43,378 nucleotides of DNA from a virus: IMG/VR virus record IMGVR_UViG_3300003321_000392, positions 1-43,378 of that record. One strand, 5' to 3'. The translations under genes and the position numbers were made by a program. Position 1 is the first letter of the stretch. The number at the start of each line of letters is the position of its first letter. This document shows positions 1,771-43,378 of the stretch, in pieces. Under the pieces are notes generated by a model, which saw only the letters and a list, made by a program, of their open reading frames with translations, searched no databases and had not been told where the DNA came from.

Positions 1771-2021
1771 TAATGCGCCGCGTGCTTCCGCAGCTCATTC
1801 GCGACGACTACGTCACGCAGCGGCGACCGCTCACGACGAAGCCGCCGTGGTGCGGGACGCTGTATATCTGGCGCGATGGCGGCGCAATATCGCTCGAGCC
1901 GGACCGAGGCACCAAGGCGCTTGAGCGCGACGCCGGGACCATCGCTCTCGACCTAGTTCAAGCCACACCGCTCGTTGTGGACCGCGACGAAGCCGACTTA
2001 AAACTGGTGACTTGCTGCTGA
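1767..2021 (+). CDS. Hypothetical protein, 84 aa
   Basis: Starts at GTG 1767 (GTGA overlap with the previous stop) or at ATG 1773, with GGGAGAG upstream. It is a small soluble protein with two C-terminal cysteines. Residues 28-70 alternate charged and hydrophobic residues, as in a small beta barrel. I do not recognise it. It is co-translated with the upstream gene, and its stop codon directly abuts a TATAAT element that appears to drive the following gene. Confidence 0.5.
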   Translation: MIMRRVLPQLIRDDYVTQRRPLTTKPPWCGTLYIWRDGGAISLEPDRGTKALERDAGTIALDLVQATPLVVDRDEADLKLVTCC

Positions 2022-2022
2022 G

Positions 2023-2028
2023 TATAAT
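2023..2028 (+). promoter_or_regulatory. Late-type -10 element (TATAAT) for gene 2038
   Basis: TATAAT in the context GAGTATAATCGG begins 2 bp after the preceding stop. It ends 9 nt before ATG 2038, so transcription would start at or within a few bases of the start codon. No credible -35 box lies 16-18 bp upstream. It is one of five similarly placed elements (2023, 8481, 12457, 17514, 24461). Confidence 0.6.
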
Positions 2029-2037
2029 CGGTCTTCG

Positions 2038-2373
2038 ATGTTACCGGCCATCTTCGTAATAGGCGACGACCTCGCGTTCCGACTCGACGACGTCAAGTCC
2101 GGGCGCGACGGTTCTAATCTGCCGGACGCCACCGTGTCGTACGTCATGATGGACGCCGAGACTCGAGAAGAGATCACGGCCGGCGACATGGATCAGTACG
2201 ATACCGACCCGTCGTCGTTCGACGGGGTGATCGCGGCGAACTTCCTCACGGAGGAAGCCGGTATCGTAAACGGCAAGGACTACTTGCTGCGCACGACGAT
2301 TCACAACGGCGGAGTGCGCACGACGAAGACGGCCACGCTCAAGGCGGTGTACGACGAGCCCGAGAACACTTAG
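2038..2373 (+). CDS. Hypothetical protein, 111 aa, probably leaderless mRNA
   Basis: Starts at ATG 2038, nine bases after a TATAAT box and with no Shine-Dalgarno sequence. The protein is acidic and beta-rich, with a GDDLAFRLDD opening and a TTIHNGGVRTTKTATLKAVY C-terminal strand pair. It resembles the small beta-sandwich accessory proteins encoded around phage tail genes. No catalytic motif is visible. The function is unknown. Confidence 0.55.
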   Translation: MLPAIFVIGDDLAFRLDDVKSGRDGSNLPDATVSYVMMDAETREEITAGDMDQYDTDPSSFDGVIAANFLTEEAGIVNGKDYLLRTTIHNGGVRTTKTATLKAVYDEPENT

Positions 2374-2388
2374 AAAAAGGAATATCGT

Positions 2389-2739
2389 ATGGCGGACCCG
2401 AAGTTCAAGCAGGCGCTCATGCAGGCGGCTGACGGCGCTCTCGCCGACGGTACGATCAGCAAGCACGATCACGAGACGCTCGCCGCGGTCAACGCGAACC
2501 CGAACCTGACGTTCGCGACCGCGCTGCAATACCTCGTGCAGCACACTCTTGGCGGCGTCGCCTCGACGGCCGGCGCGATCGACTGGCTGAGCCTCATCAA
2601 CGCGATCAAGACGATCCTGCCGCTCATCATGCAGATCGTCGCGATGTTCAAGCCGACACCGGCGCCCATTCCGCCGCCCGCGCCGAACGTCACAGCCACT
2701 GCCGCGCCGCCGCACGCCGTCGGCAGCGCACCGCACTAG
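2389..2739 (+). CDS. Small protein with hydrophobic segment and Pro/Ala tail
   Basis: ATG 2389 has AAGGA well placed upstream. Residues 1-60 are helical and soluble. Residues 62-88 (IDWLSLINAIKTILPLIMQIV) form one hydrophobic helix, followed by a Pro/Ala-rich tail to residue 116. A single membrane or membrane-surface helix next to other small membrane proteins suggests a role in lysis or membrane association. No holin family could be recognised, so this is inference from context. Confidence 0.55.
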   Translation: MADPKFKQALMQAADGALADGTISKHDHETLAAVNANPNLTFATALQYLVQHTLGGVASTAGAIDWLSLINAIKTILPLIMQIVAMFKPTPAPIPPPAPNVTATAAPPHAVGSAPH

Positions 2740-2752
2740 GAGACAAAAGCGA

Positions 2753-2852
2753 CTGAGCCGGGGGAGACGCCGCGACTGGGCAATCCGCGGCGAGTGACCG
2801 GCGCCGCGGCTCAGGCGGTCATGCTTCCCGCGAAAAGGACGGCGCCGGTCAC
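2753..2852 (+). ncRNA. Structured intergenic RNA with predicted pseudoknot
   Basis: The 137-bp gap between genes holds three perfect stems. Stem A pairs CTGAGCCG (2753-2760) with CGGCTCAG (2807-2814). Stem B pairs CGCCGCG (2768-2774) with CGCGGCG (2786-2792) inside the loop of A. Stem C pairs GTGACCGGCGCCG (2794-2806) with CGGCGCCGGTCAC (2840-2852). The 5' arm of C lies in the loop of A and directly abuts the 3' arm of A, which is the geometry of an H-type pseudoknot with no nucleotide between the stacked stems. No U-run follows, so an ordinary terminator is unlikely. It may be a cis-regulatory leader for gene 2877 or a stable small RNA. Confidence 0.6.
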
Positions 2853-2876
2853 ATCTTTAACACTGGAGATCGTAAC

Positions 2877-3281
2877 GTGGAAGCTTTAGTCAACTTGATG
2901 TGGCCGACGAACGCCGGCATGTGGCTCGGGTATGGAGTCGTCGCGCTGAGTCTGCTCTCTATGCTTGGAGGCACGATGGCAAGCGGAGGAATCGTCAACT
3001 TCATCAACGCCGCGGCGCGCGCGTTGTCCGGCAAACAGCAGACGAGCGTCTCGGCCACTGGTCAAGCGCTGAGCCAGGACGACCAAGCGACGCTCGACGA
3101 CATCCACGCGATGCAGCGCCTCGAGGCGAGAGCCAACCAACTCAACTGCGACGAGATGCGAGCCGCTGTCGCCACGATCAAGGACCACTTCTTCCACGTT
3201 CACAAGCCCGAACTGGCGCAGGCTAGTCCGCCCGCCGGGCCGACCGTCCCCACGAACATTCCGCCGCCGGCGCAAGGATGA
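2877..3281 (+). CDS. Membrane protein, 134 aa, holin-like candidate
   Basis: GTG 2877 has GGAG eight bases upstream and lies 25 bp after the structured RNA. Residues 12-40 form one long or two short hydrophobic segments (MWLGYGVVALSLLSML and ASGGIVNFINAAARAL). A soluble, charged helical domain (residues 55-110) and a Pro-rich tail follow. Size and topology fit a holin or other phage inner-membrane protein, but no family signature is visible. It overlaps the next gene by ATGA. Confidence 0.5.
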   Translation: MEALVNLMWPTNAGMWLGYGVVALSLLSMLGGTMASGGIVNFINAAARALSGKQQTSVSATGQALSQDDQATLDDIHAMQRLEARANQLNCDEMRAAVATIKDHFFHVHKPELAQASPPAGPTVPTNIPPPAQG

Positions 3282-3745
3282 CGATGTTCTATATCATACT
3301 AGCATACCTGATGGTTGACGCCATTGGTGGCGTCTATCACTGGATGGTGGACCGAGGATACGGTCTTCGCCAGCAGGTCACTCTGTTCGCGAGACATCAT
3401 GATGAGAACACGATGACGGATTTCGACTGGCAGACGTTCGCCGTTGGCCTGCCGTTCATGGTGGTCGGCGCGTGGTTTCACTCGCCGTTCTGGGTTGTCG
3501 CCGGATTCTTCGGCGTGATAACCCAGTGCACGCACTACTACGCACACCGTCGTAGTAGTGTCCCACTAATTTATCACGTCGTACGCGTCTTACAAATATC
3601 TGGCGTGATCATACGACCGAGCGCCCACCAGCGACATCACAGTAGCGGGCGCTACGATCGCGACTTCTGTCTACTCAGTGGATGGAATAACTTCTGGCTC
3701 AACCCCGTGCTACAGTTCTTAGATCGAAGAATGTTGAAGACATGA
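3278..3745 (+). CDS. Lipid desaturase-domain protein (CarF/TMEM189-like)
   Basis: A 155-residue membrane protein with the layout of the Kua/TMEM189/CarF lipid desaturase family (PF10520), whose characterised members make the vinyl-ether bond of plasmalogens. Visible family features are GGVYHW at residues 17-22, RHHDEN at 39-44, HYYAHRR at 86-92, and HQRHHSSG at 117-124 followed by CLLSGWNN at 131-138. These histidine clusters are the expected di-iron ligands. Hydrophobic segments lie at 4-16 and 55-82. The protein is shorter than cellular members. Base composition is lower in GC than its neighbours, which suggests acquisition. Substrate is inferred from the family only. Confidence 0.75.
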   Translation: MTMFYIILAYLMVDAIGGVYHWMVDRGYGLRQQVTLFARHHDENTMTDFDWQTFAVGLPFMVVGAWFHSPFWVVAGFFGVITQCTHYYAHRRSSVPLIYHVVRVLQISGVIIRPSAHQRHHSSGRYDRDFCLLSGWNNFWLNPVLQFLDRRMLKT

Positions 3746-4170
3746 AGCGACCATTCACGATGATGATGCTCGGGTTCGGTCTCGTGCTGGTCTTCAGCAA
3801 CGCGGGCGTCGGCGGGGGTGCGTCGTTCAGTTGCCCCAGCGACCAGCCCGTGGCCGTGGCGATCGCGGCTGACCTGTCGCTCACCGGCGACCAAGCGATC
3901 GGCAAGACGAATCCCGGCGTGCTGCCGATGATTCAGACTACAGCCGGCGTGACTAACGGCAAGGGTAATTATCGCTTGATGGACGTGACCACCGAGACGG
4001 CGGAGCCCGACGACGAACCGTGGGTCAAGTCCGCGTGGAAGGACCTCGGCGGCGACAAGCTCAAGCCCGGGACGTGGACCGCCGCCGGTCCGCGCGGCGG
4101 CTGGAAGCCGAAGGCGCTGCCGACGAAGGCGGAGGACGCGCAGGCGCAACTCAAGAGGATAATGAAGTGA
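3742..4170 (+). CDS. Secreted or lipoprotein-like small protein
   Basis: The 142-residue product starts MKRPFTMMMLGFGLVLVFSNAG, a classical signal peptide with a hydrophobic core at residues 6-20. Cleavage near residues 22-27 is plausible. The remaining domain has one Cys (FSCPSD) and a Lys-rich C-terminus; it has no catalytic motif. It starts inside the end of the desaturase gene and is overlapped by the protease gene, so the three are probably translated together. The function is unknown. Confidence 0.5.
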   Translation: MKRPFTMMMLGFGLVLVFSNAGVGGGASFSCPSDQPVAVAIAADLSLTGDQAIGKTNPGVLPMIQTTAGVTNGKGNYRLMDVTTETAEPDDEPWVKSAWKDLGGDKLKPGTWTAAGPRGGWKPKALPTKAEDAQAQLKRIMK

Positions 4171-10431: not shown

Positions 10432-10946
10432 CCGCGACCTATAGCACGAATCAAGACCTCTACTTGGTGTTCGGGCAGTCGAACATTAAGAAGTGGGCGG
10501 ACGTGGACAACGATCGAGTCTACGGCAACATCGAGGCTCGCCTCGACTGGGCGCGAGCGCAGGCATACGACGAGATCAACTCGAAGCTCGCCGAATCGCT
10601 CTATCAGTTCCCGCTCAAGGGCCCCGACTATCCACTGATCATCGTGCGAATGGAAGCGTCGCTGGCCGGCGTGCTGCTCTACGAGTCGCGCGGCGTGACG
10701 GACGTCGACGCGCAGGGCCGCGCGCAGCACGCGCTCCAGTGGCATCGAACGTTCGTAGAGCGATGCATTCGAGACATATTCGCTCGTCGGCTGGTCTTGC
10801 AGGGCGCCACGCTGCGAGACGACGCGACGGACCCGACGCTACAGAACGTCACGGCTCAGTTCGTACCGCTGAGTGACCCGAGTCTCGACCGCAACGCCGG
10901 GTTGCCGGTCATGGAAGACGACCTCATCGAGATACGAGTACAATGA
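10428..10946 (+). CDS. Mu gp36-like head-tail connector (DUF1320)
   Basis: ATG 10428 overlaps the portal stop (ATGA), giving 172 residues. The N-terminus (YSTNQDLYLVFGQSNIKKWADVDND) and the helical core with RLDWARAQAYDEINSKL match the DUF1320/gp36 family of Mu-like phages. These are thought to be head-completion or connector proteins. It lies between portal and MuF genes, as expected. Confidence 0.7.
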   Translation: MTATYSTNQDLYLVFGQSNIKKWADVDNDRVYGNIEARLDWARAQAYDEINSKLAESLYQFPLKGPDYPLIIVRMEASLAGVLLYESRGVTDVDAQGRAQHALQWHRTFVERCIRDIFARRLVLQGATLRDDATDPTLQNVTAQFVPLSDPSLDRNAGLPVMEDDLIEIRVQ

Positions 10947-31277: not shown

Positions 31278-34115
31278 ATGGCTGTGCCCGCGGTATCGGT
31301 GCTCGCTGAGTTAGATCGCTACCAGATAGCGTACGACTGGGCGGGCGACGACGAAGTGAAGGTAAAGTGCCCGTTCCACGACGACAGCGTCGCGTCGTGC
31401 AACGTCAGCGTGTCGAAGCGGCTCTTCATGTGCCACGCCGGCGGGTGCGGCAAGAAGGGCGACATCATCACGCTGCTCGCGAAGGTGATCGGTCACGCAC
31501 GGGCGGTCGTCCTCGAGGAGCTCGGGCAGCGCTATGACCTAGACGACGTCAAGATCGTCGAGCCGGACGTAGTCGATCGCTGGCACGCGGACATCTGGAG
31601 CGCCGGGCCGCTCCTGTCCGAGCTGTACAAGCGGGCCGTCATCGACGACGACATCAAGAAATACAAACTCGGCGTCGATCACGGTCGCGTCACCATCCCG
31701 ATCGACAACGAGCGACACGACTGGGTCAACGTCCGTAAGTACCTTCCGGGCGCGCCGGGCAACGAGAAAATGAAGAACCAGCGCGGCCGCGGGTCGGCGC
31801 GGTGGTTCCCGATCGAGCAGCTCAGATTTCCGGCCATCGTGCTGTGCGGCGGCGAGCTGAAGTCGATCGTGGCCGCTAGGCAGCTCAATCCACACGGCGT
31901 GGGCGCGATGTGGGCGACGCAGGGCGAGAAGCTGCTGCCGCCGAAGCTGCTCGCGCAGCTCAAGGGCAAATCGGTGGCGTTCTGCCTGGACGTCGACGCG
32001 GCGGGCCGACAGGCCACCGACGAGAACGCTCGCGCGCTGAAGTCGATCGCCAGCGAGATACTCGACGTCAGGCTACCGCTGGACCTCGAGAAGTTCCCGA
32101 AGGGAGACATCAACGACTTCGTCGCCAGCGGCGGCGACATGTGGGAGCTGTACCAGCAAGCCGAGCCATGGCAGGACTCACGCGCCGACAAGCTGGCCGA
32201 GACCGAGCCGGAAGTGATTCACCTGTCGGCGTCGGCCAACGCGCGATACGCCGGCAAGCGCATCGCCGTCACGGCGATCACCAGCGCGATGGACACCGCG
32301 CCGTATAGCGTGCCCAAGGACGTCGTCGTGCACTGTGATCGGTCGCAGACGTTCTGCGCGGCGTGCCCGGTCTTCCCGACCGCCGACGGGAAGTTCGAAG
32401 TCTCGCCGGAGTCGCCCGGCGTACTGGAGTGCATCCAGGCGACGCGGCGCGGCGTACACGAATCGCTGATCGGCGCGCTCGGCATACCGCGAGTCTGTCG
32501 AGTATGCGACTTCGAGGTCGAGACGTATCACAACTGCGAGGACGTCCGACTGACGCCGCAGATCGACATCACGGACCGAACGGCGGACCAGCGAGTGCAG
32601 CCGGCCATCTGCGTCGGCGAGGGCCTCGAGCTGAACGAGCCGTACAAGATGGTCGGTCGGATGTGGCCGCACCCGCAGACGCAGCAGGCCACGCTGCTCA
32701 TCTCGAAGTACGAGCCGACGCGAGACGCGCTGTCCGAGTACGAGCCGACCACCGAGCAGCTCGCCACGCTGGACGTATTCAAGCCGGACGAATGGACTCA
32801 AGATGGAATAGAGAGACGCTTGAACGCTCTGTATTCCGACCTCGAGCTGAACGTCACGCGAATCTACCAGCGCCGCGACCTGCACATGGCGATCGACTTG
32901 GCGTATCACTCACCGCTGCTCATCACGTTCGAGGGCGACATCGTCAAGGGATGGACCGAGGTGCTCGTCGTCGGCGACTCGGCGCAGGGTAAGTCGGAGG
33001 CGGCCCTGCGCATGATGCAGCACTATGGCCTAGGGGAGCGCATCGAATGCAAGAATGCGTCTGTAGCTGGACTCCTCGGCGGGTTGAAGCAATCAGGGTC
33101 GAGGTGGATGGTGGAATGGGGCTTCATACCCAAGCACGACAGGCGCTTAGTGATACTGGAGGAGATCAAGGGGACGAGCACGGAGGTGATCGGAAAGTTG
33201 ACAGATATGCGGAGTTCAGGCGTAGCCGAGCTGAGCAAGATCGAGAAGATGCGAACGCACGCCAGGACTCGCGCGGTGTGGATAAGCAACCCGCGAGCCG
33301 AGGGTCGATCGCTGGCGTCCTATGGGTACGGCATCGAGGCGGCGAGGGAGTTGATGGGAAGCCTCGAGGACCTACGCCGATTCGACCTGGTGTTGCTGCT
33401 CGCCGCGAGCGAAGTCGACGCAGCCGAGATCAATCGACTGCACGCCGCGCGGAACGGTCACCACTGCGTACACGCGCCGGACCTGTGCCGCGCCCTGGTG
33501 CTCTGGGCGTGGACCCGAGCACCGGAGCAGTGCTGCTTCGATAAGCCAGTCGCCAAGCTGTGTCTCAGCGAGGCTACGCGACTGAGCGACCTGTTCAGCG
33601 ACAGCATCCCGGTGGTCGATCGAGGCAGCGCTCGGTTCAAGATCGCTCGACTGGCGGCGTCGCTTGCCTGCCGCACGTTCAGCGCGAGCGAGGACCGAAA
33701 GTCGATCGTCGTGCGAGAGTGCCACGTCGAGTACGCCAGCAAGCTGCTCGAGCGAATATACAGCAAGCCGGCGGCAGCGTACCTCGAGTACACCAAGGCG
33801 CAGCGAGCCAGCGAGGAGCTCATCGACCCGGACTCGATCACTCGCACCATATCGCTGCTGCCGTTCCCCTACGAATTCGCGGAAGCCGTGCTGAAGGTCG
33901 ATCGAGTCGACATGCAGGACCTCATCGACTGGTGCGGCGCAGAGCGAATGGAGGCCGCGCGCATCATGTCGCTGCTCGTGCGCAAGCAAGCCGTCACGCG
34001 AGACGGCGGCGGCTATCGCAAGACCCCGGCGTTCGTCAAGTTCCTGCGGGACGTCATCGAGACGAAGGGCTTCGAGGGTCGTCCCACTCACATTCCTATA
34101 GAGGGAGAGTTCTGA
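31278..34115 (+). CDS. Primase-helicase: CHC2/TOPRIM primase fused to an MCM-like AAA+ helicase
   Basis: The 945-residue protein has three parts. Residues 1-60 are a CHC2-like zinc finger (Cys31, His34, Cys52, Cys57). Residues about 185-260 are a TOPRIM domain with CGGELK and the LDVDAAG acidic pair. The middle (about 350-480) is cysteine-rich with an OB-like ELNEPYKMVGRM block, as in MCM N-domains. The AAA+ core has Walker A GDSAQGKS (Lys572), Walker B RLVILEEI (628-629), sensor-1 WISNPR (Asn671) and an SRF-like arginine finger in LRRFDLVL (Arg701). A winged-helix-like end follows. It should unwind and prime phage DNA. The start has little Shine-Dalgarno sequence but fits the leader. Confidence 0.8.
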   Translation: MAVPAVSVLAELDRYQIAYDWAGDDEVKVKCPFHDDSVASCNVSVSKRLFMCHAGGCGKKGDIITLLAKVIGHARAVVLEELGQRYDLDDVKIVEPDVVDRWHADIWSAGPLLSELYKRAVIDDDIKKYKLGVDHGRVTIPIDNERHDWVNVRKYLPGAPGNEKMKNQRGRGSARWFPIEQLRFPAIVLCGGELKSIVAARQLNPHGVGAMWATQGEKLLPPKLLAQLKGKSVAFCLDVDAAGRQATDENARALKSIASEILDVRLPLDLEKFPKGDINDFVASGGDMWELYQQAEPWQDSRADKLAETEPEVIHLSASANARYAGKRIAVTAITSAMDTAPYSVPKDVVVHCDRSQTFCAACPVFPTADGKFEVSPESPGVLECIQATRRGVHESLIGALGIPRVCRVCDFEVETYHNCEDVRLTPQIDITDRTADQRVQPAICVGEGLELNEPYKMVGRMWPHPQTQQATLLISKYEPTRDALSEYEPTTEQLATLDVFKPDEWTQDGIERRLNALYSDLELNVTRIYQRRDLHMAIDLAYHSPLLITFEGDIVKGWTEVLVVGDSAQGKSEAALRMMQHYGLGERIECKNASVAGLLGGLKQSGSRWMVEWGFIPKHDRRLVILEEIKGTSTEVIGKLTDMRSSGVAELSKIEKMRTHARTRAVWISNPRAEGRSLASYGYGIEAARELMGSLEDLRRFDLVLLLAASEVDAAEINRLHAARNGHHCVHAPDLCRALVLWAWTRAPEQCCFDKPVAKLCLSEATRLSDLFSDSIPVVDRGSARFKIARLAASLACRTFSASEDRKSIVVRECHVEYASKLLERIYSKPAAAYLEYTKAQRASEELIDPDSITRTISLLPFPYEFAEAVLKVDRVDMQDLIDWCGAERMEAARIMSLLVRKQAVTRDGGGYRKTPAFVKFLRDVIETKGFEGRPTHIPIEGEF

Positions 34116-34117
34116 TT

Positions 34118-34699
34118 ATGACCACCATATCGCAAGCACAGCAGATGGTTCACCAGTTCCATGAGCACTGCAAGCTACTCACCAAGGCACAGCTCACGCG
34201 CGAGAACAGTGGCGGCATGAACAGCATGCTCTACGAGACGCACGCGGCGTTGCATCGCCAGTCGATGCAGCTCCAGGAGTGGGTCGGACACGATCGAGGT
34301 CTTCGCGCGCACCTCCTGACCGAGGAGCTGGCGGAGGTCGTTGAAGCGCTGATGAAGGCCGACGAGAAGCAACTGCTCGATGGTCTCGCCGATCTACTGT
34401 ACGTCGTGCTCGGCACAGCCGCGATCTACGATCTCCCGCTCGAGGCCGCGTTCGTCGAGGTGCACCGATCGAACATGACCAAGGAGAAGCAGCCGGACGA
34501 CCCGCACGCGCAGCGGCTGCGCAGCAAGGGTCCGAACTATCGACCGCCGAACATCGAGCGCGTACTGACGAACTATCGTAGCTGGCAGCGGGAGCACGTC
34601 TTCGCGCCGGACGATCTATACTCGCCGTACTGCGAGTGCGGCAGGACGCAGAACGACTCCATTCACATCACACGTAGCATGGAAGACTCTGGACAATGA
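34118..34699 (+). CDS. MazG-like all-alpha NTP pyrophosphohydrolase
   Basis: GGGAGAG lies before ATG 34118, three bases after the primase stop. The 193-residue protein has LLTEELAEVVEALMKADEKQLLDGLADLLYVVLG near residues 67-102, the EExxE...ExxD-like (here DGLAD) helices of MazG, HisE and dUTPase/dCTPase enzymes. VHRSNMTK follows, as in that superfamily. The C-terminus has a short Cys/His group (CECGRTQNDSIHITRS). It would hydrolyse a dNTP, which suits emptying a canonical dCTP or dUTP pool for the genes that follow. ATATCGCA occurs within its first codons (34127-34134). Confidence 0.7.
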   Translation: MTTISQAQQMVHQFHEHCKLLTKAQLTRENSGGMNSMLYETHAALHRQSMQLQEWVGHDRGLRAHLLTEELAEVVEALMKADEKQLLDGLADLLYVVLGTAAIYDLPLEAAFVEVHRSNMTKEKQPDDPHAQRLRSKGPNYRPPNIERVLTNYRSWQREHVFAPDDLYSPYCECGRTQNDSIHITRSMEDSGQ

Positions 34700-35952
34700 G
34701 CGACTTGACCGCCGTAGGCATTCACGTGTTCGCGGGCGGATTCACGCGCGGCGTGCTGGACGCCGGGTGGACCGTGCCGGTGCAGCTCGAGAAGCATGAC
34801 TTTGGCCTGGAGACGACCGCGGTCATGAACGACGTGCCGAGCATCAACGGCGCGAACTGGCCTAAGGTCCAGGCGCGCGTGGCGTTCGGCAACCCACGCT
34901 GCACCGCGTTCTCGACCATCACGTCGGGCGATCGCTACGTGGAGGGCAACACGCACGGCGCGTGGGCCAAGCAGACATGCGACATCCACGAACTGTGTCA
35001 GTACGCCGCCGGGCAGTACGACTTCATCATCTGGGAGTCAGTGCAGCAGGCGTACAAGGCCAGCGGTCGCGAGCTCGTCGATCACTTGATCAAGGAGCAC
35101 TTCGCCGACAAGCACTACCGCGTCGCGCACCTGTTCATCAACGCGGCGACGTTCGGCAACTGCCAGCAGCGCAAGCGCTACTTCTTCGTGGCGTACCGCG
35201 ACTGCTATCGATTCAACGTCGAGCCGCCCGCGATAACCGCGTACTATCCAGTGCTGTGGGACGTCATCAAGGAGACGCGGCACGTCGATGGTCGAGAGTC
35301 GCGACTGCGAGCAGGCGAGTACGACGCCGACTGCTACACGAACCTCACCGAGGACGAGTGGGCCGTAGTGCCGCACCTACCCAACGGATGGTCGCTCCAG
35401 CAGATGGCGCAGTACGACTACGACAACTTGCCGCCGAAGTTCAAGCGAGTATGGGACGATCGCATCAGCGATTTACCGTTCTCACTGCACGGCATCGTGC
35501 GCCTGAACTGGCTGCGACCGTGTCCGACGCTGCACTCGAGCGCCGGGCGATTCCTGCACCCGATCAAGAATAGACCGCTGACGGTCGGCGAGCTGGCGAC
35601 GGTCATGGGATGGCCTCGCATCCCGGTCGGCGATCGGCCAGTCGCGCAGATCGCGAAGGGCATCGTGCCGGCGATCGGCGCGTGGCTCATGAAGCAAGTC
35701 GAGCTGTCGATGGCGAATCACTGGGGCGAGGACGACTGGGAGTCGAGCTTCTGCGATAACTCGCAGGAGTGGGTGGGGCGCGACACGACCGGACAGCTCG
35801 AGAAGACGATCGACATGACCAAGTACGTAGGCAAGCTATTCGACAAGGACCGATACAATGACGAAGCGCTACGAGGAAATCGACTCGATGTGGCTATCGC
35901 TGCTCGCCGACTTAAGGAACAGCGGAAAGAAGCAAAGCTCGCGCAATGGTGA
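34696..35952 (+). CDS. C5-cytosine DNA methyltransferase-like protein with divergent catalytic loop
   Basis: ATG 34696 is in an ATGA overlap. The 418 residues keep the C5-MTase motif order: motif I VFAGGFTRGVLDAGW (11-25), motif IV GNPRCTAFS with Cys69, motif VI as WESVQQ (Glu114), motif VIII NCQQRKRYFFVA (155-166) and motif X TVGELATVMGWP. In standard enzymes motif IV is PCQ and motif VI is ENV; here they read RCT and ESV. The nucleophile and glutamate remain, so activity is plausible but may be altered. The gene overlaps the TS-like gene by 95 bp, which suggests tight coupling. Confidence 0.75.
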   Translation: MSDLTAVGIHVFAGGFTRGVLDAGWTVPVQLEKHDFGLETTAVMNDVPSINGANWPKVQARVAFGNPRCTAFSTITSGDRYVEGNTHGAWAKQTCDIHELCQYAAGQYDFIIWESVQQAYKASGRELVDHLIKEHFADKHYRVAHLFINAATFGNCQQRKRYFFVAYRDCYRFNVEPPAITAYYPVLWDVIKETRHVDGRESRLRAGEYDADCYTNLTEDEWAVVPHLPNGWSLQQMAQYDYDNLPPKFKRVWDDRISDLPFSLHGIVRLNWLRPCPTLHSSAGRFLHPIKNRPLTVGELATVMGWPRIPVGDRPVAQIAKGIVPAIGAWLMKQVELSMANHWGEDDWESSFCDNSQEWVGRDTTGQLEKTIDMTKYVGKLFDKDRYNDEALRGNRLDVAIAARRLKEQRKEAKLAQW

Positions 35953-36868
35953 CACGCGGCAGATCATCGGATGGTCGGGCTGCCTCGAGGATCCGCGGCG
36001 TAACTTCATCGTCAACGAGCGCCGCGCGGTCGACCCGAGCTACGCCTGCGCCGAGCTGCTGTGGTACCTAAGTCGATCGGACGACATCACCATGCTCAAG
36101 GCGTACGCCAACCAGTACGATCGCTTCGCCGAGCCAGGCACGACGCAGGCGTTCGGCGCGTACGGCAAGCGCATCGCGGAGAACGCCGGCATCGATCAAC
36201 TGTGGTACGCCGTGAACAAGCTGATAAATAAGCCGGACACTCGCCAGTGCGTCATCACGCTGTGGAGGCCGAGCGACTTACTGGAGGAAGACCGCCGCGA
36301 CTTGCCGTGCACCGTCTGCTTGCAGTTCATCGTCGAGAACAAGCGGCTTCACATGTGCACGTACATGAGGTCGAACGACGCGTGGCTCGGGTTCCCGTAC
36401 GACGTCTTCTGCTTCACCTGCTTGCAGATGCTCGTCGCCGGCACGATCGGTATCCAGCTCGGGACATACACGCACTTCGTCGGCAACATGCACCTATACG
36501 AGAAGAACGCCGCCGCGACGCGCGAGGCTTCGCTCGAGCGAAGCCTCGCGACGCCGGCGCAAGAATGGATGCCTTATGGCAGCACGCTGTACCACGCCAA
36601 GGACGCAGTGACGCTCGAGCACCTCGTGCGCAACGGATACGGCGACGAGCAGTTCTGCGAAGAGTACTACGCCAGCAAGCTCGGCGGCGAAATGAGCCTA
36701 CTCTCGGACGTCGTTCGCTGCTGTAACGCGAGACACGACTGGGTCGACTGGGACCAGAGAATCGTTTCACCCTCCTTACGCAAAGGACTCGATAATGTTG
36801 ATAATCGAAGGCGCCGATCTAGTCGGCAAGACGACGCTGGCGAAGGCGCTGACAAAGCAGCTCAATGA
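35858..36868 (+). CDS. Thymidylate-synthase-like enzyme, predicted dCMP-specific (hydroxy)methylase
   Basis: AAGGA lies about eight bases before ATG 35858. The TS fold is shown by SCAELLWYLS-like YACAELLWYLSRSDD, the nucleophile motif DLPCTVCLQF with Cys151, MRSNDAWLGFPYD (170-182), and FVGNMHLYEKN. Thymidylate synthases have PCH and Asn in LPFN; here they are PCT and Asp182. T4 dCMP hydroxymethylase has the same Asp swap and the same CT and MRSND residues, so dCMP is the likely substrate, giving 5-hydroxymethyl- or 5-methyl-dCMP. The last 35 residues overlap the kinase gene and are low-complexity run-on. A 30-bp palindrome lies inside the gene. Confidence 0.78.
   Translation: MTKRYEEIDSMWLSLLADLRNSGKKQSSRNGDTRQIIGWSGCLEDPRRNFIVNERRAVDPSYACAELLWYLSRSDDITMLKAYANQYDRFAEPGTTQAFGAYGKRIAENAGIDQLWYAVNKLINKPDTRQCVITLWRPSDLLEEDRRDLPCTVCLQFIVENKRLHMCTYMRSNDAWLGFPYDVFCFTCLQMLVAGTIGIQLGTYTHFVGNMHLYEKNAAATREASLERSLATPAQEWMPYGSTLYHAKDAVTLEHLVRNGYGDEQFCEEYYASKLGGEMSLLSDVVRCCNARHDWVDWDQRIVSPSLRKGLDNVDNRRRRSSRQDDAGEGADKAAQ
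36521..36550 (+). repeat. Perfect 30-bp palindrome inside the TS-like gene
   Basis: The arm CGCGAGGCTTCGCTC (36521-36535) is followed immediately by its exact reverse complement (36536-36550). It encodes about ten residues rich in Arg, Ser and Leu in the C-terminal third of the enzyme, in frame. It can form a 30-nt snap-back in single strands or a cruciform in duplex DNA. Confidence 0.85.
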
Positions 36869-41362: not shown

Positions 41363-41370
41363 CAGACAGT

Positions 41371-41453
41371 CGGGTCTCGTCGACCCGGCGAACTCGCCGC
41401 CGACCGCGCTTGAGCGGCGGCGAGCTGCTGGTTCGATCAACCCTTATATCGCA
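41371..41453 (+). promoter_or_regulatory. Double-hairpin leader with ATATCGCA before gene 41468
   Basis: CGGGTC (41371-41376) pairs with GACCCG (41382-41387). CTCGCCGCC (41393-41401) pairs with GGCGGCGAG (41416-41424). ATATCGCA lies at 41446-41453, followed by AGAAGGAA and ATG 41468. No promoter is visible in the gap, so this RNA would be read through from upstream, and the hairpins could act as processing or attenuation sites. Confidence 0.6.
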
Positions 41454-41467
41454 GAAGGAACCACGCA

Positions 41468-43196: not shown

Positions 43197-43378
43197 AAAC
43201 CTACACATCCGACGAACTGAAAGCGGTGCTCGACGCGCATTGGAAGTGGTTGAAAGACGAGGAGGGTGGTAGCCGCGCCGTCCTCAGCCGCGCCGTCCTC
43301 AGCCGCGCCGTCCTCAGCCGCGCCGTCCTCAACCGCGCCGACCTCAGCCGCGCCGACCTCAGCGGTGCCGACCTCAGC
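43193..43378 (+). CDS. Pentapeptide-repeat protein, truncated by the window end
   Basis: ATG 43193 overlaps the previous stop (ATGA), and AAGGA lies upstream. The first 25 residues are a charged helix. From residue 27 the sequence is SRAVL repeated four times, then NRADL, SRADL and SGADL, matching the A(D/N)LxX rule of right-handed quadrilateral beta helices. Some such proteins mimic DNA and inhibit gyrase; others have no known role. The C-terminus is outside the window. Confidence 0.8.
   Translation, partial: MKTYTSDELKAVLDAHWKWLKDEEGGSRAVLSRAVLSRAVLSRAVLNRADLSRADLSGADLS
43271..43378 (+). repeat. Tandem 15-bp repeats encoding pentapeptides
   Basis: Four identical units AGCCGCGCCGTCCTC run from 43271 to 43330. 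Three diverged units (43331-43375) follow, with a partial unit at the edge. Identity of the first four at DNA level points to recent tandem duplication. Confidence 0.85.

Follow-up and report, generated by a model that had tools for sequence, protein, structure and literature searches.

A putative pseudoknot-forming RNA element beside the start signal of a small gene in an uncultured tailed phage

Results

The phage window and the gap between two small genes

The window, by which we mean the whole stretch of 43,378 bases analysed here, gave family matches for a terminase large subunit, a major head protein, a primase, a helicase and a DNA polymerase, and it is thus a tailed phage or most of one. 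All the genes that were picked by hand from a mechanical list of open reading frames lie on the plus strand. In this hand-picked set, on which the ranking of gaps rests, the longest internal gap is the one at 2740-2876, and it contains the whole of the element described below. Its length of 137 bp agrees with that given in the initial annotation of this DNA. The two genes on either side of the gap are as follows.

2389-2739, plus strand: upstream gene, 116 aa; its TAG stop codon (2737-2739) lies 13 nt 5' of stem A
2877-3281, plus strand: downstream gene and proposed target, 134 aa, GTG start

Neither flanking gene matched any family in PHROG or Pfam, and their designation as late genes follows from their closeness to the terminase gene. 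The product of the downstream gene has a borderline hydrophobic stretch near its start (best 19-residue hydropathy 1.62) and, judged by its sequence, is possibly a small membrane protein.

Several other features of the window were recorded. The second gene downstream of the gap (3278-3745, plus strand) has a Pfam Lipid_desat match (PF10520, E 1.4e-13), and a lipid-desaturase-like gene is unusual cargo for a phage. A run of genes for nucleotide and DNA modification, comprising PRA-PH/MazG-like, C-5 cytosine methylase and thymidylate synthase genes, occupies 33560-36868 on the plus strand. A 15-bp tandem repeat (AGCCGCGCCGTCCTC), one frame of which would give pentapeptide repeats, spans 43271-43375 and reaches the end of the contig. 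A second strongly folded gap, of 105 nt at -48.0, is found at 41363-41467 and contains a GC-rich hairpin of 10 bp.

Stems and geometry of the element

The element occupies positions 2753-2852 and is followed directly by a further hairpin. Its parts are listed here.

2753-2760 with 2807-2814, plus strand: stem A, 8 bp, read from the sequence; within a longer inverted repeat
2768-2774 with 2786-2792, plus strand: stem B, 7 bp, an inverted repeat; hairpin inside loop 1, with an 11-nt loop
2794-2806 with 2840-2852, plus strand: stem C, 13 bp, an inverted repeat with 33 nt between its arms
2815-2818 with 2828-2831, plus strand: hairpin D, weak, 4 bp, flush on stem A in loop 3; taken from nested folds
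2832-2839, plus strand: purine linker GAAAAGGA of loop 3, read from the sequence
2853-2859 with 2864-2870, plus strand: hairpin E, 7 bp including two G-U pairs, loop ACAC, flush on stem C; part of the minimum-energy fold of the gap

Stems A, B and C, which the initial annotation had proposed, are all perfect Watson-Crick helices at those positions, and the three are compatible with one H-type pseudoknot, in keeping with the single compact fold that it described. With 2806 as the last base of the 5' strand of C and 2807 as the first of the 3' strand of A, the spacer between them is indeed zero, as the coaxial arrangement of A and C in that annotation had supposed. D and E are weaker helices, additional to these three. 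By analogy with H-type geometry, the purine linker would cross the shallow groove of stem A.

Chance occurrence of stem C and of the composite

Stem C alone had been called improbable by chance, and this stands only in moderated form. Perfect 13-bp inverted repeats with a spacer of 3-100 occur twice in the window, and one was present in one of eight dinucleotide shuffles of the whole window; C on its own is therefore moderately improbable and not very rare. Each arm of C also carries a copy of the octamer CGGCGCCG, which has 17 copies in the genome against 5.6 expected, and this over-representation makes C easier to get than the shuffles indicate.

A composite score was also used, namely the stacking energy of A and C with C flush on A, defined after the element had been seen. 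The value of the element, -50.3, lay beyond all 2000 dinucleotide shuffles of the gap, the best of which came to -41.4, and again none of 2000 gap shuffles matched the element when the loop hairpin was scored too. Within the window, the tile with the element was the only one of 961 to reach it. The same was true of none of 45,986 tiles from 246 other loci (best -48.2; 9 copies or extracts excluded), in a scan with a step of 60, which is able to miss a 100-nt element, and over loci of which many are AT-rich. A rescan restricted to tiles of at least 60% GC, with a step of 25 and with 1,186 exact duplicates dropped, found none among 27,347 tiles of 289 fetched loci (best -44.6), at a setting that recovers the element in the window itself. 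The score of A and C is identical on both strands, and with the hairpin term it is -62.5 on the plus strand versus -54.3 on the minus strand. By nested minimum energy the gap stands out only modestly from its shuffles (z -2.1), of which 4 of 200 were equally or more stable. A pseudoknot-capable element is well supported statistically at this locus. A loose structure descriptor (6/5/7-8 bp) was dropped as uninformative, since it fires often in other loci.

Pseudoknotted and nested folding

The best nested fold of 2753-2852, at -51.6 kcal/mol, has C and D without A or B, and in the nested ensemble of these 100 nt the pair probability is 0.00 for A, 0.01 for B and 0.57-0.60 for D. The pseudoknot energy of the same stretch was put at -60.7, or at -53.9 kcal/mol with a harsher penalty and no coaxial term, both being rough sums of helix energies and pseudoknot penalties and not the output of a program. 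Extension of the sequence to 2906, and so 30 nt into the next gene, made a different nested fold the best one (-68.0), and in it C is lost. On these models a pseudoknotted fold of the 100 nt is credible and probably the preferred one, and in the full leader it is a candidate fold.

Hairpin E and the start at 2877

The 3' strand of hairpin E contains the Shine-Dalgarno GGAG (2865-2868) of the downstream gene, 8 nt before the GTG. Folded alone, E is weak (-2.8 kcal/mol), and in a context that takes in 30 nt of the gene it pairs with a probability of 0.19-0.39. When the 24 nt after C were put through 20,000 mononucleotide shuffles, a flush stem of at least 7 bp arose in 77 of them, a test chosen after E had been seen. 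These 24 nt, which lead from the pseudoknot to the start, include 15 that are A or T (genome 38% A+T), with one UUAA and no repeats. Accessibility was calculated in local folds from -60 to +30 around each of 41 hand-chosen starts, and the Shine-Dalgarno of 2877 ranked second lowest at 0.22, although the ranking is narrow, with four further starts at 0.25-0.27. Thus the idea that the element is a late regulatory RNA fits, since the flush helix E is able to cover the Shine-Dalgarno of the next gene. The least accessible Shine-Dalgarno region of the 41 (0.02) is that of the start at 10493, where a 12-bp hairpin with three G-U pairs (10463-10490, plus strand) lies just 5' of the GTG.

Transcription signals and coding potential

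A consensus scan of 2000-4000 gave no promoter-like sites, and the terminator scan of the same interval gave one site, on the opposite strand at 3928-3914, and none at the gap. The latter agrees with the earlier remark that no U-tract follows the element. Nothing was found in favour of a discrete stable small RNA or an assembly scaffold, which had also been put forward, as promoter-like sites in 2000-4000 and terminator-like sites at the gap were both lacking. The nearest upstream TATAAT, at 2023-2028 on the plus strand, was not flagged by the two-hexamer promoter scan and is a possible promoter of a transcript that includes the element. Across the genome TATAAT is over-represented (12 copies versus 2.0 expected). 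Four of the seven plus-strand copies of GTATAAT (2022, 8480, 12456 and 17513) lie 7-9 bases before the ATG of 2038, 8494, 12472 and 17528, and by their placement look as if they were phage promoters yielding almost leaderless mRNAs.

All three plus-strand frames of the gap, which are those that the coding scores cover, fall below the 5% point of real genes and thus score as noncoding. The frame after the upstream TAG stays open for 49 codons, to a stop at 2887-2889. This extension scores -0.13 per codon, where 49-codon pieces of real genes have a mean of 0.32 (sd 0.15, 5% point 0.04), and its third-position GC is 0.69 versus 0.85; the short gene 3278-3745, taken whole, also scores low (0.006 per codon). 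The low score of the extension speaks against a plus-strand gene in the gap and against readthrough into it. A terminating ribosome reaches about 13 nt ahead. The upstream gene ends 13 nt before A, so that its translation need not unfold the knot.

Search for relatives

The terminase had 182 viral relatives (80 kept, best 69%) and 273 relatives in genomes (80 kept), the best of the latter being a Pirellulales MAG at 46%, and the gene at 450-1136 as query gave 11 loci. The proteins of 2389-2739, 2877-3281 and 3278-3745 gave no relatives among viral contigs. With 18 proteins of the window as tblastn queries (E 1e-3), the 91 loci L002-L092 showed no copy of either flanking gene, and tblastn of the two flanking proteins against phages gave no matches. 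The protein query P0002 had none in 12 records; its matches in 392 genomes numbered 7, all weak, the best of them with E 0.0012 and 32% over 56 aa. An alignment of gene 2038-2373 with its relative from the locus L028 returned only two records, L014 and L028 itself. L028 is the closest relative with local synteny, with a terminase at 63% and a homologue of gene 2038-2373 at 40%. The next two open frames after this homologue are 33 bp apart, which leaves no room for the element at the corresponding place.

The DNA of the element was itself used as a query. Among the 20 of 206 phage records listed, the lowest E was 0.03 and none covered 80% of the query; among the 20 of 28 plasmid records listed, again none covered 80%, and the match with the lowest E (0.002) lay inside a transporter gene. 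With a 901-base query, none of the 20 of 70 records listed touched the element. Four of 12 related records had matches, of only 11-19 bases (best E 0.028). A match in Streptomyces clavuligerus (E 0.009), which lies inside long mechanical open frames and includes a 7-bp stem close to where B would be, was rejected as chance, with no counterpart of A or C and a best flush pseudoknot of -24.6. The exact 16-mer of the C/A junction occurred in 67 viral stretches, of which the best was identical at 59 of 137 positions without gaps, and none had both stems in this ungapped test. The exact 15-mer of hairpin B occurred in 43 viral stretches (best 56 of 137, best pseudoknot -32.8), and none of the stretches in either set extends.

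A covariance model was built from the single sequence with stems B, C and D. Over 42 sources, which take in part of the fetched loci, it scored the window at 130 bits and the next best at 18.1 bits (E 1.1). A scan of 392 genomes from the phylum to which the Pirellulales MAG belongs had no hits at E 0.1; its filters were stricter, no more than 10 candidates were scored for each genome among those listed, and it had no positive control. In Rfam the window had no matches at the gathering threshold, and a search at E up to 10 gave three (E 1.9 to 5.5), far below the gathering scores. Records very close to the window may be missing from the collections, so that this absence of relatives is not proof of uniqueness, and the element was filed as an orphan candidate.

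Discussion

A possible restraint on translation of the downstream gene

The most likely role for the putative knot beside the start signal of the next gene would be that of a brake or switch on the making of its protein. In the version that we tentatively prefer, and hold as a real possibility short of an even chance, the element acts in cis on the mRNA and restrains translation of the gene at 2877. In a plus-strand polycistronic phage mRNA, A and C would stack coaxially as an H-type pseudoknot whose two loops carry hairpins B and D, and hairpin E would stack on the 3' end of C and hold the Shine-Dalgarno of gene 2877. This stack would keep ribosomes off the start until E opens, whether through a phage protein bound to the pseudoknot or through a change of fold, and the downstream protein would then be made late or in limited amount. 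The stems, their flush layout and rarity, the noncoding signature of the plus-strand frames and the overlap of E with the Shine-Dalgarno come from the sequence itself; that the region is transcribed and folds in this way, that a partner binds it and that translation responds is what we infer.

Counted for such a restraint were the rarity of the composite, the noncoding scores of the plus-strand frames, a rough pseudoknot energy below that of the nested fold, the position of E directly after C and over GGAG, the low accessibility of the Shine-Dalgarno, and the better score of the plus strand with the hairpin term. Counted against it were the lack of a homologue and hence of covariation, the weakness of E, the breaking of C in the best nested fold with gene context, the near-absence of A and B from the nested ensembles, the strand symmetry of A and C, and the 33 bp at the corresponding place in L028.

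Other readings of the locus

The main rival, somewhat unlikely in our judgement, is that the element acts on the mRNA itself, as a block to exonucleases or a processing site between the genes, giving the two halves of the transcript unequal lifetimes and perhaps yielding a separate RNA some 100 nt long. Such a role would suit a stable, GC-rich and compact element that stands directly after the TAG at 2737-2739 within a tightly packed run of genes, and a simple terminator is excluded by the absence of a terminator-like site. However, the promoter-like and terminator-like consensus sites of a discrete RNA are absent, no conserved relative was found, and hairpin E over the next Shine-Dalgarno would be superfluous.

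It is quite unlikely that the inverted repeat serves as DNA, its two CGGCGCCG palindromes, 41 bp apart, being recognised by a protein of the phage or the host as an operator or as a site of recombination or packaging. The palindrome in each arm of C and the strand symmetry of A and C would be expected of such a site, but of the 17 copies of CGGCGCCG, 15 are scattered over the genome beyond the gap, in a manner more like composition than an operator, and stems A and B and the flush A/C junction would be left unexplained.

Coincidence in GC-rich noncoding DNA we regard as improbable. It would account for the lack of homologues in the searches made, the over-represented palindromic octamer in C and a nested z of only -2.1, but it has to be set against a composite that, though scored post hoc, recurred in none of the 2000 shuffles and none of the 27,347 GC-rich real tiles.

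Readthrough in gag-pol of murine leukaemia virus is stimulated by a pseudoknot placed after the stop codon. A similar stimulator here, for which the TAG, a purine-rich spacer, a pseudoknot starting 13 nt after the stop and 49 open codons provide the outline, is very improbable, as the codon score and third-position GC given above are not those of a coding extension, and the extension ends without joining the frame of the next gene.

Returning to translational restraint, a bolder form of it is that the element is the first seen member of a new phage cis-regulatory class, in which a coaxial pseudoknot, each of whose loops holds a hairpin, sits directly upon a Shine-Dalgarno hairpin and times the expression of a small protein, possibly membrane-bound and perhaps of a lysis or envelope cassette; this we consider unlikely. 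A second, larger and unrelated phage pseudoknot, from an uncultured phage, would lengthen a list that is very short as judged by a 2010 review (PMC3014915). A strong orphan of this kind would also offer a clean test of single-genome structure statistics against regulatory RNAs missed by comparative methods.

Comparison with known RNA classes

Like intrinsic terminators, the element has a strong GC-rich stem between genes, but a terminator was ruled out by the 33 nt between the arms of C, the lack of a U-tract and the pseudoknotted layout of the stems. A type III antitoxin RNA, with tandem repeats before a toxin gene, was likewise rejected, as the only tandem array in 2000-3800 is one of 1.9 copies at 2405-2427, inside the upstream gene, and the downstream gene matches no family.

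In HDV the strand order is such that P2 precedes P3. The element differs, in that its C 5' strand comes after hairpin B and is followed by the 3' strand of A. A descriptor of the HDV topology (P1-P2-P3 nested double pseudoknot, P1 of 6-7 bp) fitted the plus strand weakly at two places, with a best sum of 13 bp, and the other strand nowhere; this is no better than shuffles, 13 of 30 of which gave at least 13 bp, and in Rfam no ribozyme family was found at E up to 10. A self-cleaving ribozyme, HDV-like or of another known class, has a very small probability, even if the element as modelled shares with the HDV-like and theta ribozymes reported in phages (PMC10879173) the character of a compact pseudoknotted RNA in a phage genome, here with inserted hairpins.

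The element differs from the Escherichia coli rpsO pseudoknot in its stem lengths and inserted hairpins, and no ribosomal protein is recognised at this locus. The rpsO (S15) translational operator includes a pseudoknot (PMC3014915), as the element may.

The autoregulatory pseudoknot in the leader of T4-type gene 32 consists of two coaxial helices upstream of the start codon; that of T4 is placed some 67 nt upstream, and from it gp32, a single-strand DNA binding protein, begins to bind along an unstructured leader that carries several UUAA(A) repeats (PMC3014915). The element resembles the T4 and T2 gene 32 leaders, at the level of sequence, as a phage leader RNA with a coaxial pseudoknot 5' of a start, and the stretch between pseudoknot and start is A+U-rich as in T4 (15 of 24 nt here). 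In contrast to T4, it is a larger architecture of about 100 nt, GC-rich and with hairpins in both loops, which ends 24 nt before the GTG in a leader without UUAA repeats that hairpin E may close. There is no known repressor, and the 2877 product is not recognised as an SSB, though the lack of a PHROG or Pfam match is not proof of this. By analogy the element would act, if it acts at all, like the T4 gene 32 pseudoknot, of which it is at most a candidate relative.
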